In this document: piece after piece, positions 18,842 to 44,749 of the stretch
Layout: every line of letters begins with the position of its first letter
Numbering within the stretch: the stretch's first letter is position 1
Notes under the pieces: generated by a model
Seen by the model: only the letters and a program-made list of their open reading frames with translations
What the model was told of the DNA's origin: nothing
The model's database searches: none
Assembly (NCBI GenBank): GCA_030611415.1
Contig: JAUWPW010000007.1
Coordinates: 1 to 44,749, forward strand
Direction: 5' to 3'
Source: Candidatus Bipolaricaulota bacterium
GTDB lineage: Bacteria; Bipolaricaulota; Bipolaricaulia; UBA7950; UBA9294
DNA length: 44,749 nt
Program-made: the position numbers and the translations under genes

Positions 18842-19639
18842 CTATTTCCCTCTTATATATTTAATATAACCTAAGCAGTGGTTATCAATCCCCATCAGGG
18901 CTTCCGAGCCTCTCAAGACATTCATCATGCCTGTATTAGTGGGGTCCATTAGCGCTGCATCGAGCCCTGACTCCATAAGCATTGCCAAGAAGGCTTGGTT
19001 GATAATCGATCTCTGTGGCAAGCCAAAGGAGACATTGCTTAAGCCAACACAGGTCTTCACTCCCTGTGCGCCCCAGCGTTCCTTGATCGCCCGCACTGCT
19101 TCAATCACTGTATGTGCCTGTTCCTGGTTACTCCCAATCGTCATCACTAGTGGATCAATATACAGCTGTCCCAGCTCCACCCCCACGGCCTGAAGACTAT
19201 CGATCAGTCGCTTGCTCTCTTCTAGGCGGTCTTCGACGGTCTTGGGCATTCCCCTAGTCCCCAAAGTGAGCCCGATAATATCAGGGTGATGCTCCTCAAT
19301 TAGGGGAGTCAACTGGCTCTGAAGTTCACGATTGTTGCTGATTGAGTTGATCATTGGCCGCGCCTTACAGAGCCCTAATCCAGCAGCTACTGCCTCAGGA
19401 TTAGGGCTATCAATGGAGAGCCGCACCTCTTCTCCCATCTCATCATAGATCAATCCAATAACCCACTCGAGATCCTCGATTTCTCGCTTCATGCTCGTGG
19501 CAGTGTTGATATCTAGTATGTCCGCCCCAGCCTCAACCTGTTCGCGAGCTAAACGACGTATGATTGCTTCATCCCTGCGATCTAGGGCCTCTCTGACTTC
19601 CTTACGCGTCGAATTCAAGACTTCACTGATAATAAGCAT
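18842..19639 (-). CDS. mtgA: Methyltetrahydrofolate:corrinoid methyltransferase (AcsE/MtgA-like)
   Basis: This 265-residue pterin-binding TIM barrel of the dihydropteroate-synthase superfamily moves a methyl group between tetrahydrofolate and a corrinoid protein. Pterin-site signatures are ADILDINTAT (39-48), LSIDSPNP (74-81), INSIS (97-101), YIDPLVMTIG (160-169) and GLSNVSFGLP (199-208, with Asn202 equivalent to the catalytic Asn of AcsE). The ATG follows TAGGAGA. It is the last gene of the minus-strand cluster containing two methylamine-methyltransferase homologues and a corrinoid protein, so here it most likely makes methyl-THF from the methylated corrinoid. The symbol is by analogy with glycine-betaine MtgA and could equally be AcsE-like. 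Confidence 0.9.
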   Translation of the reverse strand: MLIISEVLNSTRKEVREALDRRDEAIIRRLAREQVEAGADILDINTATSMKREIEDLEWVIGLIYDEMGEEVRLSIDSPNPEAVAAGLGLCKARPMINSISNNRELQSQLTPLIEEHHPDIIGLTLGTRGMPKTVEDRLEESKRLIDSLQAVGVELGQLYIDPLVMTIGSNQEQAHTVIEAVRAIKERWGAQGVKTCVGLSNVSFGLPQRSIINQAFLAMLMESGLDAALMDPTNTGMMNVLRGSEALMGIDNHCLGYIKYIRGK

Positions 19640-19780: not shown

Positions 19781-20773
19781 CTACCCACAAGCTACCACTT
19801 CAACTAAGCTATGACTAAACTTAGCATCACTAACCCTGCCTTTCTTGACCCTCATCCTCAACTCTGTGAGTACCTGTTGTGACTTATGGATAAGACGTTT
19901 GCTCCCAAGCTCAAACAACACTTCTCGTTCGGAGTCTTGTATGTCAGCTTTTTCTATCATTGCCATCCCGACTGCGATAGTGCCTGTTCCACATGCCTCT
20001 TCACAACCCTCCTGTCGGTAATAGGGTGTGTACATTGTTGGAAGGAATCGAAACAAAAGCCTTGCATCTCCCCCGCCCTCAGGGTGTGTGTCATACAAAG
20101 CACCGTACAGAAAAGATGCCCCTAGATTGTGTTCCTCAATAAAGGCCTCATATAATCCCTTGAGCACGTCCAGGGTCGATCTATCCTTTCTCCAGAAATT
20201 AACCTCTGGGTACTTGTTCTTGAGATCATCTACGTTAAAGACAAGCCATTCCATCCTTGAAGGCTCAATACCAACGTTTACCGCATTTACACCTCTTACT
20301 TTGATACTGCGAACACCGTGTCCATAACGTTTTTCCACATACGCTTGCATGTCGGTTGTTATCTTTGTTGCAACACCATTTCTGGCATCGATTTCAATTG
20401 GGAAAAGCCCCGCTTCGGTCTCAAGCGTGAATCTCGTTCTTGGTTCACTTATCCTCATACCGTAGCGGCTACCAATATCGGTCTCGACCAGAGCTTTCCC
20501 TAGTGCCTGTGTTAATCCACCACACATGTCTATGTAGCTATTGGTGGTTATGTCTAGTATCTTAACCTTTAGGTCTCCGTCCCCGTCAGGTTTGTAGAGA
20601 ATGCCAACCTCAGTTCCTCTGAGGCTCGGCCTCCGGAGCAATGATAGACCAATCTTGAGCTCTTCTCCCTCTGGTAGTTGTACACCATGAAGGAACACCA
20701 CTTCATCCCACCCTGTATGTACCTTTACAAAATCGATTTTCTTGTCTCTTGCTCTACCTTGGCGTTGGTCCAC
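19781..20773 (-). CDS. Cofactor-independent racemase/epimerase, DapF/proline-racemase fold
   Basis: This 330-residue protein has the two-lobed epimerase fold with both catalytic cysteines: Cys84 in DMCGGLTQALG and Cys261 in EEACGTGTIAVG. These correspond to the MCG(N/H)G and CGTG motifs of diaminopimelate epimerase, proline racemase and PrpF-type isomerases. The rest diverges from all of these, so the substrate is not assigned. The GTG start overlaps the 3' end of the MttB-like gene by 20 bases, indicating coupled expression. It may invert an alpha-carbon or shift a double bond in the methylated substrate or its demethylated product. It is unlikely to be the housekeeping DapF because of the operon context and sequence divergence. 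Confidence 0.75.
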   Translation of the reverse strand: MDQRQGRARDKKIDFVKVHTGWDEVVFLHGVQLPEGEELKIGLSLLRRPSLRGTEVGILYKPDGDGDLKVKILDITTNSYIDMCGGLTQALGKALVETDIGSRYGMRISEPRTRFTLETEAGLFPIEIDARNGVATKITTDMQAYVEKRYGHGVRSIKVRGVNAVNVGIEPSRMEWLVFNVDDLKNKYPEVNFWRKDRSTLDVLKGLYEAFIEEHNLGASFLYGALYDTHPEGGGDARLLFRFLPTMYTPYYRQEGCEEACGTGTIAVGMAMIEKADIQDSEREVLFELGSKRLIHKSQQVLTELRMRVKKGRVSDAKFSHSLVEVVACG

Positions 20774-22241
20774 GCATCTTCACCTGCCCTTTTGAGGTGC
20801 TTCTGTTCACAATCTCTCTGATGGTTTGCCTAATTGATGGCTCAAGTGGTTCAGGTTGGTGATGCTCTAGAATCCACTGCACTCTTGCATTTAGTCTCTC
20901 ACCTAGCGGCTTCCCTCCTGACTTAAACCAACCATCGTAGTTATGCCGATCTAGATACTCGGGATACCAAACCTCTTCTTTGAAAAGCTTCAGGGTATGT
21001 TTGTCGCTCAGGAAGTTACCCCCCGGGCCAACCCTATTTATCACATCTACGGCCAATGTTTCTTCTGTAACCTCAACGCCTCTTAGGAACCGCTTAATCT
21101 CACCAATAACCTCATTTGCCAACACGATCGCCTCATAAGAAGCCGTGAGGCCTGACTCCAGATAACCAACATCATGAATCAAGTTGGTTCCAGCAAGTCC
21201 AACCAGCATCAAGGTAATTGCGACTTCCAAAGCAGCCTGTTGATCAAAGAGCTTAGCATCACTGACCCCTCCCTCACCAAACACCGGCAATCCGTAATAG
21301 GTAGCCATCTCCCTGATGGCCACCTCATCCAACCAGTTCTCCGGTGCTGCATAGGAAAACGTACTGGTTCGCATGTCCATAGGAGAACTTCCTCCTCCAC
21401 AAATTACGGGCGCCCCCCTATGCTTGAGTTGGCTAACAACTAAGCCGCTGAGGAATTCGGCCATGGATAGAACTACCGCACCAGCTATGGTTACAGGCGC
21501 CGAAGCCCCCATTGAAGGGCCACTGACGTAAACCAGAGGGATGCCCTTCTCAGCACAGAAAAGCAGTTGTTGAGTAGCTTCGACAGTATGTCTAAGTGGA
21601 GTAGTAGGCTCTGCATAGTGAATTACAAAGGGAGCTCTCCGGAAACTTCCAACATCTCCTGCAACCGCGATGCACATCTCATAAATATCACCCAAGCCAT
21701 CTACATCTGAGGCAGTAAAGATGATCGGTTTCGTGGTATTAGAAACCATCTGTTCAAAATGATGGCGGTCTGCTGTTACATCATTAACATCCGAGGCTAT
21801 CCCCATGGACATGACAAAGTCAATGTTGGACAGATAGTCACAGAGCAGTGCAGCGTTACCTATATCCTGCTTCTTGCTCTGTCGTCTCTTGCCGGAGAAA
21901 GGATCGATAGTGTTTGGCAGATCTGAGCCCGTTCCAAAATACACGTTGTGCCCCTCAAGAAATAAGGCAGGTTCTGCATTACGGTTGTAAACAACGATTC
22001 TTTTGGGGGCACTACGCAGGGCTTCCTCTACTAGGGAAGAGGGTATTCTCGCCAGGGTTTGACCGGTAATGTCAGCCCCAGCTTCCCCAAGTAGTCTCAG
22101 GGCTTCTGGCTCAAGAAACCTTACCCCTGTCCTCTCCAGTACATCCAAAGCAGCCATGTGTATTCTGTAGCACTGATCCTTGGACAGCAGACTGAGCTCC
22201 GGGCGTCTCTGAACACTAAAGTTTCCGTTACCGCTTCCCAT
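20754..22241 (-). CDS. MttB-family (trimethylamine methyltransferase superfamily) methyltransferase, non-pyrrolysine
   Basis: This 495-residue TIM-barrel enzyme is of the MttB/COG5598 family, which transfers methyl groups from quaternary amines to Co(I) corrinoid proteins. Family features are ERTGVRFLEPEALRLLGEAGA near the N-terminus, GIPLVYVSGPSMGASAPVT (233-251), MDMRTSTFSYAAPE (288-301), HDVGYLESGLTASYE and the C-terminal FLSDKHTLKLF with DRHNYDGW. No internal amber codon occurs. The segment where archaeal MttB carries pyrrolysine (near residue 334) is ordinary, with K330 in GGVSDAK. Non-Pyl relatives such as MtgB, MtpB and MtcB use glycine betaine, proline betaine or carnitine. AAGGAGG precedes the ATG. 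It is downstream of the MtmB-like gene and coupled to an epimerase. Confidence 0.92.
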   Translation of the reverse strand: MGSGNGNFSVQRRPELSLLSKDQCYRIHMAALDVLERTGVRFLEPEALRLLGEAGADITGQTLARIPSSLVEEALRSAPKRIVVYNRNAEPALFLEGHNVYFGTGSDLPNTIDPFSGKRRQSKKQDIGNAALLCDYLSNIDFVMSMGIASDVNDVTADRHHFEQMVSNTTKPIIFTASDVDGLGDIYEMCIAVAGDVGSFRRAPFVIHYAEPTTPLRHTVEATQQLLFCAEKGIPLVYVSGPSMGASAPVTIAGAVVLSMAEFLSGLVVSQLKHRGAPVICGGGSSPMDMRTSTFSYAAPENWLDEVAIREMATYYGLPVFGEGGVSDAKLFDQQAALEVAITLMLVGLAGTNLIHDVGYLESGLTASYEAIVLANEVIGEIKRFLRGVEVTEETLAVDVINRVGPGGNFLSDKHTLKLFKEEVWYPEYLDRHNYDGWFKSGGKPLGERLNARVQWILEHHQPEPLEPSIRQTIREIVNRSTSKGQVKMRGPTPR

Positions 22242-22536: not shown

Positions 22537-23922
22537 CTAATAAGGGAAGTCAATACCTATCTTAGCTATTTCTTCCTTTGCGCTTTCGTAAAGCGCTACA
22601 TAATCTTCTGTAGGTATCCCTTTACGAGCATCGTAGCATTCTTTAAATTCCTTTCCTAAGGGGGCATCCGCTATTTTGTCCTCGTACTTCCCTAGAAGCT
22701 TATTGACCACTTCGTTTGCCTCTTCCCTCGTCATCCCACTTCTGGCCACAGCGTGCCCTACTTCAGCCGCCAGCCTAGCCTCCAGAGGTGTGGCTCTGTT
22801 TTTGTTCTTGTTCCTCGCCGGAGCTATCTCCCACAGATTTGCCCCTGACACGGTACTGGCTATGCTATGCGCAGCCGCTTCAAAGAACAACATCTCGGTG
22901 CCCGGACCAGCATTGGCGAAGCCATTGGATACATTCACCAGCTTACTATGTCTTGCTACCGCTTGGGAATAGACGCTAACTACCCAAAGCAGTTCGCGGG
23001 TAGTGTTCGAGAAGTACTTTAGGTGATAAGGGAAGTTCATCTGGTAATGGCTTTGATACACCATCAATCCATTCAAGTGATAGGCCGTTTCAAGTACTGC
23101 GGTCCCCTCCGCTCCACCAGCATACCCACCGTAAAGCGCCCCCGTGAGGTTTGCTACATAACAACCATACTGCTGGCAATGTACTACCTTATTCATCATA
23201 GAGTTGTTGGTCATCAACTCCGTGATAGAACCAATCAAGCGGCTGTCGGTAGTTCGAACACCCCATTCAGGATCGCTTACAGAAATCTGAGAGGCATCGG
23301 ACTGCGACGTTCCTACTGCTACAAGAAAAACCCCCGGTCTTCCGACCAGCCTGGCTGCTTCCCGCAGGCTCATCGCGTGTTCCAGGCTCCCAGCCAACTC
23401 AATCGGGGTACCTGACTGAATCCTCATTCCCATAGACTCTTCAAGTATAGGGGCACAGAAACCATCCAATAGAGGTTCTTTGAGATAAGCAATGCACGCC
23501 GTAAGGAAATCCTCTTCATCGAAGATAATATCAGGGCTAAAGATCACAAACGGTGGTGTCCTATCTTCTACTCCCCTGTGTTGAAGGATCTTAGAATCCT
23601 TCCCTATCCCTACATTGTACTCACCGGCAGTGCAGCTCAAAGCTTCCAGTATCTCTTTGTCACTGAAAGTAATTCTTCTATGTGTGTCTTGATTGTATAT
23701 CCCTACATCTCTGAAGAGCTCTACGGCAGCCTCCCAAACCCTATCAGCTAGAGAATCCTGTGTTGGGATAGGAGAATGTGAGTCATATTTGATACCGTAT
23801 TTTTCTATGACCTCCTTTAGCTTGGGAACGAGAATCTTCGTCAAGAATTCTTGCTGCTCACAAAAAGGTCCCGTACTAGCCCTCTCCACAACGTCCCACA
23901 TCCTATACGGCGGGGTTGCCAT
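22537..23922 (-). CDS. MtmB-family monomethylamine methyltransferase homologue lacking pyrrolysine
   Basis: This 461-residue protein aligns along its full length with archaeal MtmB (458 residues), the TIM-barrel enzyme that methylates its corrinoid protein from monomethylamine. Shared landmarks include FRDVGIYNQDTHR, VGRPG (193-197), TTDS (224-227), YGGYAGGAEGT (264-273), NAGPGTEM, EARLAAEVG and GKEFKECYD near the C-terminus. The pyrrolysine position (202 in MtmB, four after GRPG) is Val201, and there is no in-frame amber. From memory of MtmB, Glu229 and Glu259 beside pyrrolysine correspond here to Leu229 and Leu259. The start is overlapped by the stop of the corrinoid protein gene. The fold and partner are thus MtmB-like, while the substrate must differ or be handled without the pyrrolysine chemistry. 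Confidence 0.88.
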   Translation of the reverse strand: MATPPYRMWDVVERASTGPFCEQQEFLTKILVPKLKEVIEKYGIKYDSHSPIPTQDSLADRVWEAAVELFRDVGIYNQDTHRRITFSDKEILEALSCTAGEYNVGIGKDSKILQHRGVEDRTPPFVIFSPDIIFDEEDFLTACIAYLKEPLLDGFCAPILEESMGMRIQSGTPIELAGSLEHAMSLREAARLVGRPGVFLVAVGTSQSDASQISVSDPEWGVRTTDSRLIGSITELMTNNSMMNKVVHCQQYGCYVANLTGALYGGYAGGAEGTAVLETAYHLNGLMVYQSHYQMNFPYHLKYFSNTTRELLWVVSVYSQAVARHSKLVNVSNGFANAGPGTEMLFFEAAAHSIASTVSGANLWEIAPARNKNKNRATPLEARLAAEVGHAVARSGMTREEANEVVNKLLGKYEDKIADAPLGKEFKECYDARKGIPTEDYVALYESAKEEIAKIGIDFPY

Positions 23923-24578
23923 TATTTGGTCCTCCTTTCCTCTACTAGTCTCGCAACTAGCTTCACCGCCCCAAAAGCAGTATCACTGTAACCATCAGCC
24001 CCTATCTCTTCCGCCCATTCAGGCGTAACAGGAGCACCTCCCACAATTGCGAAATACTTATCGCGAACACCTTTTTCCTTCATTATCTCTATTACCTCTC
24101 TCTGCCCTGCCATTGTAGTAGTCATCAGGGATGACATAGCAATACCGTCTGCGCCTACCTCGTCAGCCCTCTTTATGAACTCTAGCGGATCAACGTCGGT
24201 CCCAATGTTATAGACGGTGAAGCCAAATATCTCTAGCATAACAGAAACAATATCTTTGCCGATTTCATGCTGATCGCCTGCTACTGTGCCTATTACTATT
24301 CTACCTTTCGATGCGTCAACACCTGTTGACTCTTTTAATTTGGGCAAGAAGATTTTCATGATGGCTTTCATGGCATCGGCTGAAGCCATCATCTCAGGCA
24401 AAAAGATCTCCAACTGCTCAAATCTGTCACCGACCCCCTTCATCTCTTCTGTTAATTTCTTCAGTGCTAGATCAATGTCCCCGTTCGCGTGTACGAACTC
24501 CTCTGCCGTCTTGACAGCTGCATCCGTCTCACCGTCTACAACCGTTTGCACTAAGGTTCTTATCTGCTCGTCGTTCAA
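23922..24578 (-). CDS. Corrinoid methyl-carrier protein (MtmC/MtbC/MttC family)
   Basis: This 218-residue protein has an N-terminal four-helix cap (about 1-85, with GDRFEQLEIFLPEMMASADAM) and a Rossmann-like B12-binding domain. The cobalt-ligand motif DxHxxG is GDQHEIG (Asp102, His104, Gly107), followed by GIAMSSLMTTTM and VGGAPVTPEWAEEIGADGY. It shuttles a methyl group between a substrate methyltransferase and a folate methyltransferase. Its stop TAA shares a base with the mtmB-like ATG, so the two are almost certainly a cognate pair. It may also serve the MttB-like enzyme, since no other corrinoid gene lies in this cluster. Confidence 0.95.
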   Translation of the reverse strand: MNDEQIRTLVQTVVDGETDAAVKTAEEFVHANGDIDLALKKLTEEMKGVGDRFEQLEIFLPEMMASADAMKAIMKIFLPKLKESTGVDASKGRIVIGTVAGDQHEIGKDIVSVMLEIFGFTVYNIGTDVDPLEFIKRADEVGADGIAMSSLMTTTMAGQREVIEIMKEKGVRDKYFAIVGGAPVTPEWAEEIGADGYSDTAFGAVKLVARLVEERRTK

Positions 24579-24687: not shown

Positions 24688-25038
24688 TCAACCATCCCGG
24701 TATTCCTTCTCTAGGCTTAGTACTTGCATTCTACTTTCCTTAATATCGCTCAGCAACTCGTGACTATTCTGACAGCTTAACGCTTTGGTCGGGCAGCTTG
24801 AAACACAGGCCGGTTCCAATCCCTTCTTTAGCCTCCCCTCACAAAATGTACAATTCTGAGCGATCGAAATCACGAAATCTGTCGCTAACCTGCCATCTAC
24901 TATTTGGGGTCCGATCTCATTTACCCTGATCCATGCTTCACCTTCTGGTAAGTTGTTCTCCTTTCTACAAGCTATTTCACAGGCGTAACACCCCACACAT
25001 CGATCTAAGTCCACAATTATAGCGTTGTACTCTGTCAT
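24688..25038 (-). CDS. 4Fe-4S dicluster ferredoxin-like subunit of molybdopterin oxidoreductase
   Basis: This protein of about 116 residues carries two cysteine motifs, CVGCYACEIAC and CTFCEGRLKKGLEPACVSSCP, sufficient for two [4Fe-4S] clusters. It resembles a shortened DmsB/PhsB-type electron-transfer subunit, which usually has four clusters. I start it at the ATG at 25038 (MTEYNAIIVDLDRC), one base past the oxidoreductase stop; a longer frame to 25119 lies wholly inside the large-subunit gene. It has no Tat or Sec signal and no membrane anchor, so the pair is cytoplasmic. It probably passes electrons between the molybdenum subunit and ferredoxin or another soluble carrier. Confidence 0.85.
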   Translation of the reverse strand: MTEYNAIIVDLDRCVGCYACEIACRKENNLPEGEAWIRVNEIGPQIVDGRLATDFVISIAQNCTFCEGRLKKGLEPACVSSCPTKALSCQNSHELLSDIKESRMQVLSLEKEYRDG

Positions 25039-25039
25039 C

Positions 25040-27142
25040 TCAAGCACTCTCCCTATATATTCTGCAGAGAAACGACCTATTTCCTGTTGCAGCTGAAATG
25101 GGACAGCGTGGCACATCATCGGTCAGTATATTATCTGGTTGTCCGCTCGCATACGGTTGCCCCCATCCATGCGCGACCATCACAACCTTTGGATGAACTC
25201 CGAGGGTGAGTTGTGCTTTAACCCTGATCTTCCCACGCGGAGACTCAACAACTACCCAGTTTCCATCGTCAATGCCGAGTTCGCTGGCTGTGTCAGGATG
25301 TATTTCTACAAAGGGATCTGGCTGTACCGAGTTCAATGATGGCAAGGTCCTAAACTGTGTATGGGTAAATTGACCGGGCTTAAGACCGGTTCCACAAACT
25401 AAGGGGTATTCCTCATATAGGTCCGGCTTGGAGTAAGGGCTCTCAGCCGGTTCTTCGAAGGTAGGTAGTGGATCATATCCATGCTTCTTGAAAGTCTCAG
25501 AGTAGAACTCAACCTTGTTCGTTGATGTGTTGAAACCGTGCTTCTCGTATTTTCTGTAAACCTGGTCACGGGCAAACCTTATCACCATTCCCTCAGGGTG
25601 TTGCCTGAGTTCTTCTGCAGTTATATCAAGAGGCTCAAGCTCGTAGTTGATAGCCTCCTCCTCATCTTCCCAAGGGAAATACTCTTCAAGGCCGACCCTC
25701 CTTGCCAATTCAAATATGAACCGGGGATCCGACCAGCTCTCACCTAAAGGCTCAACGACCTTGTTTGCTAATGCTAAGACACGGGTGTCAACGCTTGGAA
25801 CCTGTTCAGTGCCGTCCACGATATGTGGGTATTCAAAGAATGAGGCAGCGGGCAACACCATGTCTGCTAACTCCGCAGTCGCTGTCATGTACAACTCATG
25901 GACCACGATAAAGTCTAGCTCCCTCAATATGTCCCTTACCCTTAAGGTGTTTGACGCTATCGTTGCTATTGAGCTGCCCTGCGCAATCAGTGCTTTCAAC
26001 GGATAAGGCTTGCTTGTTTCGATCGTATCTAATACTTCGGGCGTAGAAACTCCCCACAGAGGGTAATACAATGGATGCGTTGAGATAGATTTACTACCAT
26101 TAGCAATAACCTTGTTTATCCTCTTACGCAAGGTGAGATCCCTCCGATTTAAGGGAAGAGGGAAGATAACACCCCCTGGAACATCAATGTTACCGGCTAT
26201 TGCGCGAAAAATTGCCATAGCACGGGTTGTCTGGACAACGTTTGTGTGCTGCTCGATACCGTTCCCATCCTCTAGAACGGCACCAGGACTCGCCGCCGCA
26301 TAAAGATCCGCCACTTCACGGATCTTATCAGCCGGAACCCATGTCATCTTACTGACTTTCGTAAGAGGGTATTCCTCGGCAAGGGCTTGTAATGCTTCAA
26401 ACCCGTGAACGTACTTGTCGACAAACCCCCTATCGTAAAGCCCCCCCTTTATGATATAGTTCAACATGCCAAGAATCATTGCACCATCGCTCCCAGGCCG
26501 AGGTTGAATAACCAGGTCTGCCTTGGCTGCAGTACTTGTAAATCTGGGATCAACAACAATCAGCTTTACCCCACGCTTAGCAGCATCAAGTATTCGCCTT
26601 CCATGGTGAGGCAACGATGTCTCCATTGGGTTGAAGCCCCACAAGATCATCAGCTTAGTATTCTCGTAGTCAGGCAATGGTTGCCCACCATAGGTATACT
26701 TGTGTCCGATCGTGCGCGGAGTGTAGCACAGGTGATCATGGGAAGCTACATTCGGCGACCCAAAAGCGCTCATGAATCTCTGTACATAGCTCCAGTTGCT
26801 CCCCCACCTAGGACCGGCTCCGCGGTGCCAGACAACGGATTCCGCACCATACTCCTTCCTGAAGCTAAGTAGTTTGCTCGCAATGGTGTCCAAAGCCTCA
26901 TTCCAAGATATCTCCCTCCATCTACCCTCCCCTCGTTCTCCTTCTCTCTTCAGAGGCTTTGTTAAACGCTTTGGATCATATTCGTACTCCACTGCGGCGA
27001 ATGCTTTCGGACAGAGTTCTCCCCCACTGGCAACATGGCCAGGCAGTCCTTCTACTCTTATGATCCTTCCATCATGCACGTAGGCTTTCATCCCACAAAC
27101 ATTATTACACATACCACAAACCGTATTGATGCACTTCGCCAT
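25040..27142 (-). CDS. Molybdopterin oxidoreductase, DMSO-reductase superfamily, cytoplasmic
   Basis: This 700-residue catalytic subunit is of the Mo/W-bis-MGD family. The N-terminus holds a [4Fe-4S] motif (Cys9, Cys12, Cys16, Cys44). Typical segments follow: WNEALDTIASKL, NPMETSLPHHGRRILDA, VDPRFTSTAAKADL, RPGSDGAMILGMLNYII, and a C-terminal dinucleotide-binding domain with TGNRSF. The expected Mo ligand is Cys139 in HDHLCYTPR, as in formate dehydrogenase, Nap and Psr/Phs types, not the Ser of TMAO/DMSO reductases. There is no Tat signal. The gene lies 29 bases behind the permease dppC and two bases ahead of its Fe-S subunit. The substrate is unknown; placement implies action on the imported methylated compound or its product. 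Confidence 0.9.
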   Translation of the reverse strand: MAKCINTVCGMCNNVCGMKAYVHDGRIIRVEGLPGHVASGGELCPKAFAAVEYEYDPKRLTKPLKREGERGEGRWREISWNEALDTIASKLLSFRKEYGAESVVWHRGAGPRWGSNWSYVQRFMSAFGSPNVASHDHLCYTPRTIGHKYTYGGQPLPDYENTKLMILWGFNPMETSLPHHGRRILDAAKRGVKLIVVDPRFTSTAAKADLVIQPRPGSDGAMILGMLNYIIKGGLYDRGFVDKYVHGFEALQALAEEYPLTKVSKMTWVPADKIREVADLYAAASPGAVLEDGNGIEQHTNVVQTTRAMAIFRAIAGNIDVPGGVIFPLPLNRRDLTLRKRINKVIANGSKSISTHPLYYPLWGVSTPEVLDTIETSKPYPLKALIAQGSSIATIASNTLRVRDILRELDFIVVHELYMTATAELADMVLPAASFFEYPHIVDGTEQVPSVDTRVLALANKVVEPLGESWSDPRFIFELARRVGLEEYFPWEDEEEAINYELEPLDITAEELRQHPEGMVIRFARDQVYRKYEKHGFNTSTNKVEFYSETFKKHGYDPLPTFEEPAESPYSKPDLYEEYPLVCGTGLKPGQFTHTQFRTLPSLNSVQPDPFVEIHPDTASELGIDDGNWVVVESPRGKIRVKAQLTLGVHPKVVMVAHGWGQPYASGQPDNILTDDVPRCPISAATGNRSFLCRIYRESA

Positions 27143-38657: not shown

Positions 38658-38722
38658 AACCAGTCAAACCAGTGAAGAGTATTAGGTGAGAGAACAACAT
38701 TGTGAGCAGATGGAGGAATCAA

Positions 38723-40594
38723 TTGCAAACCAAGGTGTTAAGTGGCAATGAAGCCCTTGCCTATGGAGCGCTGCAGGCCGGTGTAAAGGTAGTCACCGGC
38801 TATCCAGGCACCCCCTCGACCGGCGCATTGACGAGCTTGCTGGCAATGGATCTTCCGGGTAGACATGTGGAGTGGAGCGTAAACGAGAAGGTTGCCTTTG
38901 AAATAGCCGCTGGAGCAGCGTGGGCCGGCCAGCGAGCCTTGTGTACAATGAAGATGTCGGGGTTGAACGTGGCCTATGACTCGCTAATCTCTATCGCTTA
39001 CTCCGGATGTAATGGTGGGCTGGTAATCTATGTTGCCGATGATCCGGGCGCTAGCGCGGGAATGGCTGAGCAAGACACGCGTGGATTTGCGTTGATGTCG
39101 GACTTGCCAATGCTTGAACCAAGCTCCGTAGGGGACACCTATCGGTTGACGCAGGTAGCTTTTGAGCTCTCGGAACGCGTAAAAACGCCAGTCTTCATTA
39201 GGTTGGTTGCCTCGATTGCCAATGCCAAGATAGCCCTAAAGATCGATGATTTGCTACCGCCCGCTGAACGCACACCAACCCTCGAGCGAAACATTGCCAA
39301 GTACACCAAAGCCGGCGCCGCAATCTGTATCACACAGCACCAGGATGTGATCGCCCGCCTCGAAAAGGCGAGCGAAGTTATACATGAAATGGGTCTAAAC
39401 TCTCTACAATTGGCTGAAAAACCCGGCGGCCTTGGAATTGTTGCTGTTGGTGCAGCAGCAGCATATCTAGAAGAGGCATTCGACCTTGCTGTTGAGTATG
39501 GACTCGACAAGACAGAGGTCTCGGTTTTGCGCACAGTGACAACAACTCCATTTCCAACAGTAGATGTGCAAAGGCTGTTTGCTCACTGCAATTTCATCCT
39601 TACCTTGGAAGAGTTGGAACCGTACCTTGAACGTGGTGTTTACATCCAAGCACACAGGGCCGGATTCACCGGCAAGATCATCGGCAAGCTTGATGATGGG
39701 CCCTTAAGCCGCGTGGGGGAGTACGATGTTGACCATGTGCTACAAGGGCTCAATACAGCGCTTGGATTAGGCATCCCTGTAGATCACTTCAAAGGGAATA
39801 GAGCAACAGAGACACTTGCAGCTCGACGTCCAATTACCGTCTGTGCCGGATGTCCCCACCGCGGGACCTACATGGCCATTAATCAAGCGATCCAGAATCT
39901 CAATCTTGACAAAGATAACGTGATGGTCACTGGCGACATCGGGTGTACAATCCTCGGGATGAACCCACCGTTTAACACAGTGTGGACGGAGGTCTCCATG
40001 GGAGCAAGTGTCAGTCTGGCACAAGGCTACGTTCATGGAGGGGTTAGGACACCGGTAATCGCTACTATTGGAGATTCAACGTTTTTCCACGCCGGGATTC
40101 CGGGATTGCTCAACGCGATTCAGCACCAGACTCCATTGACCGTTGTCATTATGGACAACGGGTGGACAAGTATGACGGGGATGCAGGTAAATCCAGGTAC
40201 AGACGAGACATTTCAACAGTCAGGTGGGCGCCGAATCGATCTTGCGAAGGTGATTCCAGGACTTGGCATAGACCAGTTCTTTGTCATCGATCCCTACGAT
40301 CTGAAAGGGGCAACCTCCATCATCGAAGGATGTCTCACCCTTCCGGGGGTAAAGGTTGTGCTCTCTCGTCGCGAATGTGCCATCCAAGCAATGCGGCAAG
40401 GCAAACACGCAGGAAATGTGCGCTTGATCCCCGAGAAGTGCATACTGTGCAAGCAGTGTATCACCGCCACCGGATGTCCTGCCCTGTCAATTGAGGCCGA
40501 ATCCATCGCAATCGACCCCGCCCTATGCAATGGTTGCGGACTGTGTGCTGCTGTCTGCCCAACAGGAGCCCTCGAGAAGGAGGATGGGACATGA
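38723..40594 (+). CDS. iorA: Indolepyruvate:ferredoxin oxidoreductase, alpha subunit
   Basis: This protein of about 623 residues is the thiamine-diphosphate subunit that decarboxylates aryl pyruvates to aryl-acetyl-CoA while reducing ferredoxin. The N-terminal pyrimidine-binding domain has GNEALAYGALQAGVKVVTGY and PGTPSTGAL. The TPP domain follows CAGCPHRGTYMAI with GDIGCTILGMNPP and GDSTFFHAGIPGLLNA. The C-terminus has two [4Fe-4S] motifs, CILCKQCITATGCP and CNGCGLCAAVCP. I favour the TTG at 38723, seven bases past GGAGG. A GTG at 38702 gives seven more residues but lacks a ribosome site. It is coupled to iorB by an ATGA overlap. Confidence 0.96.
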   Translation: MQTKVLSGNEALAYGALQAGVKVVTGYPGTPSTGALTSLLAMDLPGRHVEWSVNEKVAFEIAAGAAWAGQRALCTMKMSGLNVAYDSLISIAYSGCNGGLVIYVADDPGASAGMAEQDTRGFALMSDLPMLEPSSVGDTYRLTQVAFELSERVKTPVFIRLVASIANAKIALKIDDLLPPAERTPTLERNIAKYTKAGAAICITQHQDVIARLEKASEVIHEMGLNSLQLAEKPGGLGIVAVGAAAAYLEEAFDLAVEYGLDKTEVSVLRTVTTTPFPTVDVQRLFAHCNFILTLEELEPYLERGVYIQAHRAGFTGKIIGKLDDGPLSRVGEYDVDHVLQGLNTALGLGIPVDHFKGNRATETLAARRPITVCAGCPHRGTYMAINQAIQNLNLDKDNVMVTGDIGCTILGMNPPFNTVWTEVSMGASVSLAQGYVHGGVRTPVIATIGDSTFFHAGIPGLLNAIQHQTPLTVVIMDNGWTSMTGMQVNPGTDETFQQSGGRRIDLAKVIPGLGIDQFFVIDPYDLKGATSIIEGCLTLPGVKVVLSRRECAIQAMRQGKHAGNVRLIPEKCILCKQCITATGCPALSIEAESIAIDPALCNGCGLCAAVCPTGALEKEDGT

Positions 40595-41187
40595 GCTACG
40601 ACATCTATCTTGTTGGCGTTGGTGGTCAGGGTATTCTGACGCTTGCTGACCTGATTATGCGAGCAGCTGTCCACAAGGGGCATCCAGTCAGTTTCTTCCC
40701 CACGAAAGGAATGGCACAGCGTGGAGGGTTCGTAAAGGCCGAGTTGCGATTAGGGCGTGCGGGAGTAGGACCACACATCCGAGAGAGTGGGGCTCATCTT
40801 GTGCTTGCCATGGAGCGCTCTGAAGCGCTGAAGGGAGTACGGTACGCGCGGCCTGAAGGCGACTTCCTATTATATGGTCACGTGTGGGAGCCAACTGCCG
40901 TGATGCTTGGAGAAGCGCCCTACCCACCGCTCGAATCGGTGCTGGAGGCCATCCGAGTCAGTAACGCTCGACTGGTCTATCTCGATCCAAAAGAGCTTGC
41001 CAAAATCGACGGGGCATACGTAGCTGCAAACGTCTTCGTCCTTGGAGCGGCATTTGGAAACACAAGATTGGGTGAAGTGCTCAGTGCCCACGAGATGATA
41101 GAGGTTGTTCAAGCACGGTGGCCGCACAGAGCAAAGCACAATGCGGCTGCATTTGATGCTGGCCTGCGTGTCAGAGGGACATCTTGA
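40591..41187 (+). CDS. iorB: Indolepyruvate:ferredoxin oxidoreductase, beta subunit
   Basis: This 198-residue gamma/beta-type 2-oxoacid oxidoreductase subunit has the nucleotide/CoA-contacting loop VGVGGQGILTLADLI near its N-terminus and FPTKGMAQRGGFVKAELRLG. AAGGAGG (40577-40583) precedes the ATG at 40591, which overlaps the iorA stop; a longer frame from 40525 lies within iorA and is rejected. It forms the heterodimeric enzyme with IorA. Its stop overlaps the TTG start of the next gene. Confidence 0.95.
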   Translation: MSYDIYLVGVGGQGILTLADLIMRAAVHKGHPVSFFPTKGMAQRGGFVKAELRLGRAGVGPHIRESGAHLVLAMERSEALKGVRYARPEGDFLLYGHVWEPTAVMLGEAPYPPLESVLEAIRVSNARLVYLDPKELAKIDGAYVAANVFVLGAAFGNTRLGEVLSAHEMIEVVQARWPHRAKHNAAAFDAGLRVRGTS

Positions 41188-43223
41188 GCCTGGGAAAGCT
41201 CTTCTATCCTCGTGGAGTTGCTGTAATCGGTTCCACCTCCAAAGGAAAACTCGGCTATGAACTGATCCGTAAGATTGTTAACGGGGGCTACGACGATGTT
41301 TACGCGGTTAACCCTAAGAGTCAAGGCGCGCATGGAGTCCCCGGGTACGACGCAGTCTCTCACATTGATCGGTCCATTGATCTTGCTGTAATCGCCTCGC
41401 CTGCTCCGACAGTGGCAGACGTTCTTCGGGATTGTGGAAAAGCTGATGTGAAGGTCGCTGTGATCATTACCGCAGGCTTTTCGGAGGTAGGGAACACCAA
41501 AGAAGAAGCACAGATTGCAGCTGTTGCAAAGCGGTATGGAATCCGCTTGTGCGGACCAAACTGTGCCGGAATCATCAACACAAGATATCGCCTGTACCCA
41601 ACACTGGAAACCCATCCCCCACAGGGCGATGTAGCGTTTGTGACCCAAAGTGGGGCGCTTGGAGGTGCTGTCCTTTCGTGGGCTGAAGAGCAAGGGCTAG
41701 GGTTTTCGAAGTTCGTAAGCTATGGGAATGGTGTTGATCTCAACGAGATCGATTTCCTTGACTATCTTGTCGATGATTCCGATACAAAGGTTGTTGCCCT
41801 ATATATTGAAAGCGTCTCTGACGGCCGCGCGTTCATAACGGCCGCGCAACGTCTTACTCGAGAAAAGCCACTTGTAGTGATCAAAGCGGGACGTAGTGTG
41901 TCCGGCCAGCGGGCAACCTTGTCTCATACAGGATCAATAGCTGGATCGGACGCTGTGTACGATGCTGCCTTCCGCCAGTGTGGCGCGATTCGTGTGGACA
42001 CAATAGAGGAGATGTTCGACCTGTGTCGAGGGTTCGTTACGCTTCCGCCTGTAAAGGGACAACGTCTTATCATCGTTACCAATTCTGGTGGCCCTGGGGT
42101 CCTCGCAGCGGACCGGGCTGAAGCAGTAGGCCTACACCTGGATAAACCGACTCCAAAACTACAAGCAAAGCTCTCCACATTTCTTCCCCCAGTCTGTTCA
42201 CTGGGGAATCCGATCGATCTCACTGTTGAGGGAACCGAAAGTGACTATCGGAAAACACTGCGTGAAGCATTGGGAGAATATGACGCCGCGCTAGCCATCA
42301 ACGTCTGCACGCCTTATCTAGATGCTCTTCCTCTTGCGCGGGGAATCTGCGGCGCTGCTGCAGCGGTTACAAAGCCCGTTGCTGCAAACTTTATGGCCGG
42401 CAGAACGGTCGCTCTCAGTCTGCCTTATCTGAAAGAGCATGGCGTCCCCAACTTCGTTACTGGGGAACGGGCGGTGATGGTACTTTCACAGATGGCAACC
42501 TATGAGGAGTATAAGAGGAAGAATCATCTACTGCCAAAGATTCCAGTAATGATAGGGTCTCTTCCCGGTGATAGTGACGGTCCTTTGCTCGAGCCGGAAG
42601 GAATGAGGTGGTTGGCTGAAAACGGGATCCCGGTTCCGGAATATCGGCTTGCCATATCTGTGGATGATGCCGTGAGTGGAAGCCGCTCGATTGGCTATCC
42701 GGTGGTGATAAAGGTCGTGTCCCACGATATCACACACAAATCGGAGGTTGGCGGTGTCATCACTGACATTCGTACGGATGACGAAGTAGTCGTTGCATTT
42801 CACTCGATCGAACAGCGAATAGGTGAGCGCGACTTCCAAGGGGTAGTGATCTACCCAATGATCACCGATGCCCTGGAGATCCTGATCGGGTTCTCACGGG
42901 ATGCGCAGTTCGGCCCGGTGATTGCCTTTGGGATGGGGGGAATCTATACGGAGGTCCTTCAGGATATCTCACTCCGCATTGCCCCACTTGACTATGATGA
43001 GGCCAATGCGATGATCCGAGAGATTAAGGCCTTCCCTATCCTCGAAGGCACACGAGGACAGCCAACACGAGACCTAAATGCCGTGGCGAAGATCTTGGTC
43101 GACTTCTCGTGCCTTCCCTTCCTCTACCCTGAGATTGTAGAGGCCGACCTGAACCCTGTATTCGTGTTGTCAACTGGAGTCCTGGTTGGAGACGTGCGAG
43201 TGATACAAGAGAGGAGGAACTGA
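41184..43223 (+). CDS. ADP-forming acyl-CoA synthetase (acetyl-/aryl-acetyl-CoA synthetase, fused alpha-beta)
   Basis: This 679-residue enzyme converts acyl-CoA, ADP and phosphate to acid, CoA and ATP. Domain order is CoA-binding Rossmann (1-130, GVAVIGSTSKGKLG), succinyl-CoA-ligase-like domain (150-440, VTQSGALGGAVLSWA, and the phospho-His motif SHTGSIAG with His248) and ATP-grasp (460-679, GYPVVIKVVSHDITHKSEVGG, VEADLNPVFV). It starts at a TTG overlapping the iorB stop, with AGAGGG upstream. Coupling to iorAB strongly suggests that it recovers ATP from the aryl-acetyl-CoA that IorAB makes. Confidence 0.94.
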   Translation: MSLGKLFYPRGVAVIGSTSKGKLGYELIRKIVNGGYDDVYAVNPKSQGAHGVPGYDAVSHIDRSIDLAVIASPAPTVADVLRDCGKADVKVAVIITAGFSEVGNTKEEAQIAAVAKRYGIRLCGPNCAGIINTRYRLYPTLETHPPQGDVAFVTQSGALGGAVLSWAEEQGLGFSKFVSYGNGVDLNEIDFLDYLVDDSDTKVVALYIESVSDGRAFITAAQRLTREKPLVVIKAGRSVSGQRATLSHTGSIAGSDAVYDAAFRQCGAIRVDTIEEMFDLCRGFVTLPPVKGQRLIIVTNSGGPGVLAADRAEAVGLHLDKPTPKLQAKLSTFLPPVCSLGNPIDLTVEGTESDYRKTLREALGEYDAALAINVCTPYLDALPLARGICGAAAAVTKPVAANFMAGRTVALSLPYLKEHGVPNFVTGERAVMVLSQMATYEEYKRKNHLLPKIPVMIGSLPGDSDGPLLEPEGMRWLAENGIPVPEYRLAISVDDAVSGSRSIGYPVVIKVVSHDITHKSEVGGVITDIRTDDEVVVAFHSIEQRIGERDFQGVVIYPMITDALEILIGFSRDAQFGPVIAFGMGGIYTEVLQDISLRIAPLDYDEANAMIREIKAFPILEGTRGQPTRDLNAVAKILVDFSCLPFLYPEIVEADLNPVFVLSTGVLVGDVRVIQERRN

Positions 43224-43226
43224 TAG

Positions 43227-44510
43227 ATGACGCATATTAGACAACAGCGTGGGTTGAACGCCATCAAGGCATATGTGCCCGGTAAGCCCATTGATGAGGT
43301 GCAACGGGAATACGGCCTCAAGGATGTAATTAAGCTAGCGTCCAACGAGAACCCACTTGGTGCCTCGCCTAAGGCATTGGCCGCGATGAAGGAGAGCCTT
43401 TCACGCGTAAACTCTTATCCAGATGGGCAGAGCCACAATCTGCTAGAAGCCCTTGCAGAGCACCTTAGAATTAGAACTGAACAGCTAACCGTGGGCAATG
43501 GAGCCGATGGGCTCATCATGCAGACTTGCCTGGCGTACTTGGATGAAGAGAGTGAGGTAATCGTCAGTCAATCTTCATTTCCGGTCTATGATATCTATAC
43601 CCACGTCATGAGAGCGGCACTGATCAAGATACCGCTGAGAAACCTTAGTCTGGACCTCGAGGCCATGCTCCGAGCAATTAGCGATAAGACAAAGCTTATC
43701 TTTGTCTGCAACCCAAACAATCCTACCGGAACGATTGTCACCGCATCCGAAGTAGAGGCTTTCATGAACAGGGTGCCAAAGCACGTGCTTGTCATCTACG
43801 ATGAAGCCTACTACGAGTTGGTCGATTCTCCTGACTATCCGGATAGCCTGCGCTATATTCGAGATGGCTACACCAACACAATGATCATGCGTACATTCTC
43901 CAAGATTTATGGTCTGGCCGGTATCCGCTTGGGGTATGCCATTGCAGAGCCTGAAATTCTGGCGCCTCTCAATAAGGTGAAGGAACCCTTTTCGGTCAAC
44001 CTACTCGCCCAAGCTGCAGGTGTTGCGGCTCTAAAAGACAAAGCATTTCTCGAGAAAACAGTGGCAACAAATCACGCGGGACGCATCTACCTGTATGGCG
44101 AATTCGAACGGTTGAGGTTGCCATATATCAAGAGCCACACTAACTTTGTTCTCATCAAGATAGGGCCCCAAGCCGCAGCGGTCCAGGAAATGTTGCTGAA
44201 GAAAGGTGTTATTGTACGACCCTGTACCGGCTATGATCTTCCTTTGTTTCTTCGCATTACAGTTGGCAGTAAAACTCAGAACGTCCGGTTCATCGAGGCC
44301 CTTGAGTCCACCCTCCAAGATCTAGAGCGAAGTTCCTGCCCTCATAATGGCAGCCCCGGTGTTGGGATAGGAACTTACACAAGAATCGTGATACAGGCTT
44401 TGGATAATCAGTGCCGCCCTATTGAAGTAGTTTGTTTGCCAATTTTACTGCCGAGGCGGCATCGGGGGCGTAACCATCGGCGCCGATTTCATCAGCATAG
44501 CTTTGCGTAA
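43227..44510 (+). CDS. Histidinol-phosphate aminotransferase-like (HisC-type) PLP enzyme, extended C-terminus
   Basis: This class I/II aminotransferase has the PLP lysine at Lys226 in TFSKIYGLAGIRLGY, with NPNNPTGT (162-169), YDEAY (191-195) and ASNENPLGASP. The family homology ends near residue 368 (IEALESTLQDLE), yet the frame runs 60 residues further as a Pro/Arg/His-rich tail that is antisense to the corrinoid gene on the other strand. The tail looks non-native and may reflect a lost stop codon or indel. GAGGAGG precedes the ATG. Next to iorAB and acyl-CoA synthetase, it likely transaminates aromatic amino acids rather than serving histidine synthesis, since no other his genes are here. 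Confidence 0.88.
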   Translation: MTHIRQQRGLNAIKAYVPGKPIDEVQREYGLKDVIKLASNENPLGASPKALAAMKESLSRVNSYPDGQSHNLLEALAEHLRIRTEQLTVGNGADGLIMQTCLAYLDEESEVIVSQSSFPVYDIYTHVMRAALIKIPLRNLSLDLEAMLRAISDKTKLIFVCNPNNPTGTIVTASEVEAFMNRVPKHVLVIYDEAYYELVDSPDYPDSLRYIRDGYTNTMIMRTFSKIYGLAGIRLGYAIAEPEILAPLNKVKEPFSVNLLAQAAGVAALKDKAFLEKTVATNHAGRIYLYGEFERLRLPYIKSHTNFVLIKIGPQAAAVQEMLLKKGVIVRPCTGYDLPLFLRITVGSKTQNVRFIEALESTLQDLERSSCPHNGSPGVGIGTYTRIVIQALDNQCRPIEVVCLPILLPRRHRGRNHRRRFHQHSFA

Positions 44511-44749
44511 CCGGCGCACCCCCGATCATCACTTTAACCTGGGCTCGCAGCCCGGCTTCCTTAAGTGCGTCGATCACCTCAGGCATGTGGAGCATCGTCG
44601 TTGTCAGCAGGGCCGACATACCGACAATATCAGGCTTGTTTTCCTTCACCGACTGGACAAAGGTGTCGGCAGGTGTTTCCGCGCCAAGGTTTATCACCTC
44701 GAATCCAGCGCCCTCAAGCATCATGGAAACCAAGTTCTGCCCGATGTCA
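44419..44749 (-). CDS. Second corrinoid protein, 3' part, runs off the window
   Basis: The frame stays open to the right edge, where the codons read DIGQNLVSMMLEGAG. This is the end of the cobalt-ligand motif (HDIG), so the His itself lies just outside. The rest is a B12-binding domain: INLGAETPADTF, DIVGMSALLTTTM, MIGGAPVTQSYADEIGADGYAPDA. It differs in sequence from the corrinoid protein at 23.9 kb. It is convergent with, and overlaps by 92 bases, the 3' tail of the HisC-like frame. A second methyltransferase system probably follows beyond the window. Confidence 0.93.
   Translation of the reverse strand, partial: DIGQNLVSMMLEGAGFEVINLGAETPADTFVQSVKENKPDIVGMSALLTTTMLHMPEVIDALKEAGLRAQVKVMIGGAPVTQSYADEIGADGYAPDAASAVKLANKLLQ

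Follow-up and report, generated by a model that had tools for sequence, protein, structure and literature searches.

Introduction

What does a protein of the monomethylamine methyltransferase (MtmB) family do when it lacks pyrrolysine (Pyl)? In MtmB, the Pyl imine makes monomethylamine an activated methyl donor. The question is raised by an open reading frame at 22537..23922 (minus strand) of a 44,749-nucleotide stretch of DNA from a Candidatus Bipolaricaulota bacterium, here called the window, in which an earlier note had recognized an MtmB homologue without Pyl and had considered such members not established for the family. That view is outdated. Kashyap et al. 2026 (PMC13044021) state that MtmBs lacking Pyl are long known, and they present a tree of 1,061 members with and without Pyl, most of the latter without known function, together with assays of MtqB from Methanococcoides methylutens Q3c on tetramethylammonium, choline, and monomethylamine (37, 42, and 11 nmol/min/mg, respectively). 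Moreover, the most induced protein of strain DCMF grown on dichloromethane is a non-Pyl MtmB (PMC9768040). Relatives without Pyl are already known to be common, but the sub-group described here has its own pocket and its own gene neighbours. Among the many non-Pyl homologues, hardly any has a known function; in this sub-group, named V/L/L/N/F after its residues at five Pyl-site positions, informative neighbours, including a regulator of a histidine-sensing type, let the substrate be guessed.

Identification of the MtmB-family protein

The reading frame encodes 461 amino acids from an ATG start and runs through without an internal stop or TAG, as had been claimed. The gene's own stop codon is TAG (22537-22539, minus strand), with an in-frame TAA five codons later. 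The Pfam MtmB profile PF05369 covers residues 8-457 (E=3.4e-91; 306.8 bits, with the cut-off at 25; profile positions 3-450 of 450 aligned), and the M. barkeri MtmB chains in the PDB align to residues 7-459 (E about 2e-64), which bears out the full-length homology proposed earlier and places the protein in no unrelated family. PF05369 alone was matched in the Pfam profile search and the MttB superfamily profile PF06253 was not, so that assignment to the MttB family was rejected. No NCBIfam model fits the protein, and it is the sole match in its own genome whether the methyltransferase is used as a query or PF05369 as a profile. A viral-contig scan and searches of plasmid and phage collections found nothing, and AlphaFold2 run on a two-row alignment only reached a pLDDT of 32. 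Judged from its sequence, the protein is an MtmB-family methyltransferase without pyrrolysine, and it very probably does function as a methyltransferase.

Residues at the pyrrolysine site

Members of the family were gathered from whole genomes and 51 proteins were aligned, 10 of them with Pyl (an in-frame TAG, or M. barkeri). An independent MAFFT alignment against MtmB pairs Pyl202 with Val201, Glu229 with Leu229, Glu259 with Leu259, Gln333 with Asn333, and Tyr335 with Phe335, and the landmarks TDS (225-227), GGYAGG (265-270), and AGP (338-340) fall at matching numbers in MtmB; the residue correspondences and landmark numbers given in the earlier note were exact. We call these five positions a pocket on the basis of sequence alignment and not of structure coordinates.

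The combination O/E/E/Q/Y occurs in 10/10 Pyl members and in 0/41 non-Pyl members, each clade of which can be told by a five-letter code of its own. The window protein and four homologues that are 55-69% identical to it all read V/L/L/N/F. On this alignment, chance is excluded as the source of the pattern, because the Pyl and non-Pyl members separate completely and the code is invariant within the clade. The five positions thus act as a clade bar code that divides the family into groups assayable one by one. Two other homologues (L051 and L079, with codes KNTSM and KNTSI) have Lys at the Pyl202 position.

An amber mutant of a Pyl enzyme was rejected, as all pocket positions differ and the clade is conserved. 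Also very improbable is a standard monomethylamine methyltransferase able to do without Pyl. Family membership and the slight activity of MtqB on monomethylamine (PMC13044021) speak for such an enzyme, but all five of the five Pyl-site positions differ, none of the 41 non-Pyl members retains the Pyl set, and activation of a primary amine depends on Pyl chemistry. The family match and the five-position alignment support the earlier expectation that a substrate or mechanism different from that of Pyl MtmB is likely.

Phylogenetic position of the V/L/L/N/F clade

The MtmB family was found in 7/100 genomes of the window's own phylum (the window itself not counted), in 27/399 genomes sampled from the phylum to which a close homologue belongs, and in 7/43 genomes of a class inside that second phylum. 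The homologues with Val/Leu/Leu that the earlier note had proposed to seek form a clade spanning two phyla with recurring neighbour genes; it comprises the window protein, L002, L068, L069, and L026 (support 100/100), with 205 of 458 alignment columns invariant. A sister clade (L050 in genome G426 and L073 in G517), which shares 35% identity with the window protein, shows Cys at Pyl202 and otherwise L/L/N/F, and each of these two genomes carries both Cys-type and V/L/L/N/F copies.

All Pyl proteins group in a single clade (100/100) amid many non-Pyl clades of an unrooted tree, and the window protein is not nested among them. Descent from a Pyl enzyme is therefore unsupported. The earlier description of a coordinated loss of pocket residues stands in part: the difference at the Pyl-pocket positions is coordinated, but a loss is not supported for a protein outside the Pyl clade.

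A pseudogene was rejected on the open frame and the conservation of the clade. The broader idea of a decayed or non-catalytic relative draws on the absence of the Pyl residue and is most improbable, given the open frame, the 205 invariant columns in a two-phylum clade, the conserved pocket code, a good ribosome-binding site, and coupling to a corrinoid gene. Horizontal acquisition of the gene appears likely, because the family is present in 0/3 same-genus genomes and the MtmB copies of relatives share only some 30% of their residues with the window protein.

Gene organization in the window

Immediately upstream of the methyltransferase gene lies a gene for a corrinoid protein (23922..24578, minus strand) with B12-binding_2 and B12-binding domains and the motif GDQHEIG (DxHxxG). 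Its stop codon overlaps the methyltransferase ATG by one base (TAATG), with AGGAGG just upstream, and a corrinoid gene adjoins nearly all MtmB members fetched, Pyl or non-Pyl. Translational coupling of the methyltransferase to its putative cognate corrinoid protein is the best reading of this arrangement. Downstream on the same strand are an MttB-family methyltransferase (20754..22241; by profile and alignment non-Pyl, with Val at Pyl334 of M. barkeri MttB), a proline-racemase-fold protein that has both CG motifs (19781..20773; DMCGG and EACGTG; a weak match, E=1e-7) and may be an amino-acid racemase or epimerase, and, by profile matches, a methyltetrahydrofolate:corrinoid methyltransferase (MeTr; 18842..19639), presumed to act on the acceptor side. 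A gene for a RACo-type activase lies on contig C45 beside that of a second corrinoid protein; the other reading frame next to RACo is presumably FolD-like. A partial corrinoid protein at the window's end (44419-44748, minus strand) is 80% identical over 107 amino acids to the one on C45 (L090). The parts of a three-component system (a corrinoid protein with DxHxxG, MeTr, and RACo) are present, and they may function jointly.

The genome is 93% complete, and its SSU rRNA, EF-P, and GroEL mark the organism as a bacterium. A search of it for PylS gave a best match of 33.9 bits against a cut-off of 178, and CdhC/AcsB had no match in it. The Rfam model PYLIS_3, which describes the pyrrolysine insertion sequence of mttB, reaches 41.8 bits (cut-off 38) at 21167-21264 (minus strand), inside the MttB-like gene. 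This gene has no Pyl and the genome no PylS, which suggests that the model reads coding conservation.

On the other side of the corrinoid gene, a 4Fe-4S protein of a molybdopterin enzyme (24688..25119) and a molybdopterin oxidoreductase-family protein (25040..27142), both assigned by profile on the minus strand, have an uncertain link to the methyltransferase. The best solved relative of the latter is acetylene hydratase (2e7z, E=5e-98), and a short fragment with 49% identity to it over 45 amino acids lies near the homologue at L067.

The shared operon raises the prospect of a tandem whose substrate would be proline betaine or another amino-acid betaine: the MttB-like enzyme would remove the first methyl group and the MtmB-like enzyme would remove a further one, while the racemase-like protein would act on the product. 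The MttB family includes the proline-betaine demethylase MtpB, the racemase-like protein keeps both CG motifs, and the window and five related genomes (L004, L006-L009) have the corrinoid, MtmB-like, and MttB-like genes in a row; in those five, the MtmB and MttB sequences are quite different from those of the window. However, the other V/L/L/N/F clade members have no MttB-like gene in the fetched flanks and the racemase match is weak, and we regard the tandem as rather unlikely. In related genomes (L014, L016-L019), members of another MtmB clade, with the code A/A/A/S/T, have a corrinoid-protein gene on one side and an MttB-like gene on the other, and the cluster at L017 adds hydantoinase A/B, octopine-dehydrogenase-like, carbamoyltransferase-like, and ornithine-cyclodeaminase-like genes.

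Neighbourhoods of related loci

The fetched loci of the clade share a different set of neighbours. At L067 the order is GlcF, GlcD, LarA, indolepyruvate ferredoxin oxidoreductase (IOR) alpha/beta, an ADP-forming acyl-CoA ligase (ACD), an aromatic-type aminotransferase, corrinoid protein, MtmB, and MeTr. In DCMF (L086) it is a PaaK-like ligase, HutP, corrinoid protein, MtmB, GlcD, GlcF, NhaC, and a HisC-type aminotransferase, and at L056 and L087 RACo, corrinoid protein, MtmB, and a HisC-type aminotransferase, with HutP and IOR absent. The HisC-type aminotransferase occurs at 3/4 clade loci with wide flanks (two of the three being close relatives of each other) versus 0/19 wide-flank loci of other clades. 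Such genes outline what may be a pathway from an aromatic-type amino acid through a 2-oxo acid to acyl-CoA and ATP.

The window holds similar genes at 38.7-44.5 kb, namely IOR alpha-like (38702..40594, plus strand; 63% identical to one four genes from the L067 homologue), IOR beta-like (40525..41187, plus strand; assigned by sequence match), ACD-like (41184..43223, plus strand; 58% identical to its L067 counterpart), and a HisC-type aminotransferase (43227..44510, plus strand) whose relatives adjoin the methyltransferase at L086, L056, and L087. Overall, the oxidoreductase and CoA-ligase types are 55-63% identical to those of L067. These genes lie 15-20 kb from the methyltransferase gene, on the opposite strand and in another operon. 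HisC-type enzymes are common, and the one in the window scores above the HisC cut-off and may be the plain genomic HisC.

Two loci of the clade, those in DCMF and G508, also encode HutP ahead of their methyltransferase genes; it was absent from all other fetched loci and was not found in the window. The two proteins are 70% conserved and close to HutP of B. subtilis, which requires L-histidine and Mg2+ (PMC7430163); both keep His73 and His138, with Ala or Asp in place of His77. In both genomes a strong hairpin with a T-run follows hutP and precedes the methyltransferase genes, with hutP and this intrinsic terminator, ahead of the corrinoid-methyltransferase genes, at L086:8744-9345 and L088:3733-4370. 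Six UAG triplets lie in the 75 nt before the hairpin in DCMF (P about 0.009 under a first-order model), and the clustering expected of a HutP site is not significant in G508 (P 0.65). Because this test is significant only in DCMF, we put forward HutP antitermination control of the methyltransferase genes in these two genomes as a suggestion. The L067 contig, which has no hutP, shows a TTGACT/TATAAT promoter and a terminator-like hairpin before the corrinoid gene.

Proposed reaction and substrate

Taken as a whole, a Pyl-independent, corrinoid-dependent MT1 ('MtxB') enzyme of the MtmB family with an N-methylated amino acid as substrate is probably the best explanation. From the chemistry of the family, we infer that the methyl group must arrive pre-activated, because Pyl is absent and an apolar set stands in its place. 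The enzyme would bind an N-methylated substrate whose methyl group is activated by positive charge, on a quaternary or a protonated aromatic nitrogen, and would present it to the Co(I) carried by the corrinoid protein of the adjoining upstream gene. This Co(I) would attack the methyl group directly, without a Pyl adduct, as with choline or tetramethylammonium in MtqB, and the methyl group would pass to cobalt and then to tetrahydrofolate through the downstream-encoded MeTr as a putative partner, with the RACo-type activase encoded elsewhere presumably keeping the corrinoid reduced. The demethylated amino acid would then be transaminated and oxidized by the 2-oxoacid oxidoreductase and the ADP-forming CoA ligase. 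Since CdhC/AcsB was not found in this 93% complete genome, the methyl group probably exits by oxidation on tetrahydrofolate and not by acetyl-CoA synthesis.

As to the substrate itself, an N-methylated amino acid or betaine is a serious possibility, if somewhat short of an even chance. The clade neighbours point tentatively to an N-methylated aromatic or imidazole amino acid, and a histidine derivative (ring-methylhistidine or hercynine-type) is the leading, still tentative, candidate because of the HisC-type, IOR, and ACD neighbours in the clade and HutP in DCMF and G508. Several findings weigh against the preferred explanation: the lone characterized non-Pyl MtmB uses choline and tetramethylammonium and no amino acid, the window has no HutP and its amino-acid genes are distant and on the other strand, its aminotransferase is of a common type and above the HisC cut-off, L056 and L087 have neither HutP nor IOR, His77 is missing from HutP, and the UAG test fails in G508.

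The protein might instead demethylate small quaternary amines in the manner of MtqB, with choline, tetramethylammonium, or the like as substrate and the nearby amino-acid genes unrelated. MtqB, the only characterized non-Pyl MtmB, carries out exactly this reaction, the apolar Val/Leu/Leu/Phe pocket seen in the alignment suits quaternary ammonium, and an MttB-family gene adjoins. However, no choline or tetramethylammonium gene signature was found in the window or the clade, where aminotransferase and 2-oxoacid genes recur instead, and we hold this alternative to be unlikely, though deserving of attention.

Returning to the amino-acid substrate, a more speculative and less likely proposal is that the V/L/L/N/F clade consists of corrinoid-dependent methylated-histidine demethylases (for ring-methylhistidine or a hercynine-type compound), in some Bacillota under a HutP antitermination switch that would have shifted from histidine utilization to methyl metabolism. 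A literature search combining methylhistidine, demethylation, and corrinoid found no paper. If the proposal is true, energy metabolism would draw on the imidazole amino acid as well as on its methyl group. Anaerobes would thereby have a new kind of source for carbon and methyl groups, and the proposal would bear on why only simple methylamines need pyrrolysine.

Comparison with known systems

MtmB of M. barkeri (PDB 1NTH/1L2Q; PF05369) shares with the window protein full-length homology, the landmarks, and an adjoining corrinoid gene. In contrast, the window protein lacks Pyl, has L/L/N/F in place of E229/E259/Q333/Y335, and belongs to a genome without PylS. The MttB superfamily (MtgB, MtpB, MtcB, and MtyB) likewise consists of Pyl-free TIM-barrel methyltransferases that work with a corrinoid protein, although it is PF06253, a sequence family different from PF05369.

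The orthologue in 'Candidatus Formimonas warabiya' DCMF (G507:C1:5372630-5374000) is 63% identical, with the same pocket code and a corrinoid gene just upstream; unlike the window gene, it is flanked by HutP, GlcD/F, NhaC, and a HisC-type aminotransferase. We dropped the idea that it is the dichloromethane-induced Ga0180325_111810, whose gene number suits a 1.87-Mb region and not 5.37 Mb; judging from gene order, the two are probably distinct. MtqB (PMC13044021) resembles the window protein as a non-Pyl MtmB homologue adjoining a corrinoid-protein gene and, by its published description, differs from the window system in being archaeal, linked to CoM, and active on tetramethylammonium and choline.
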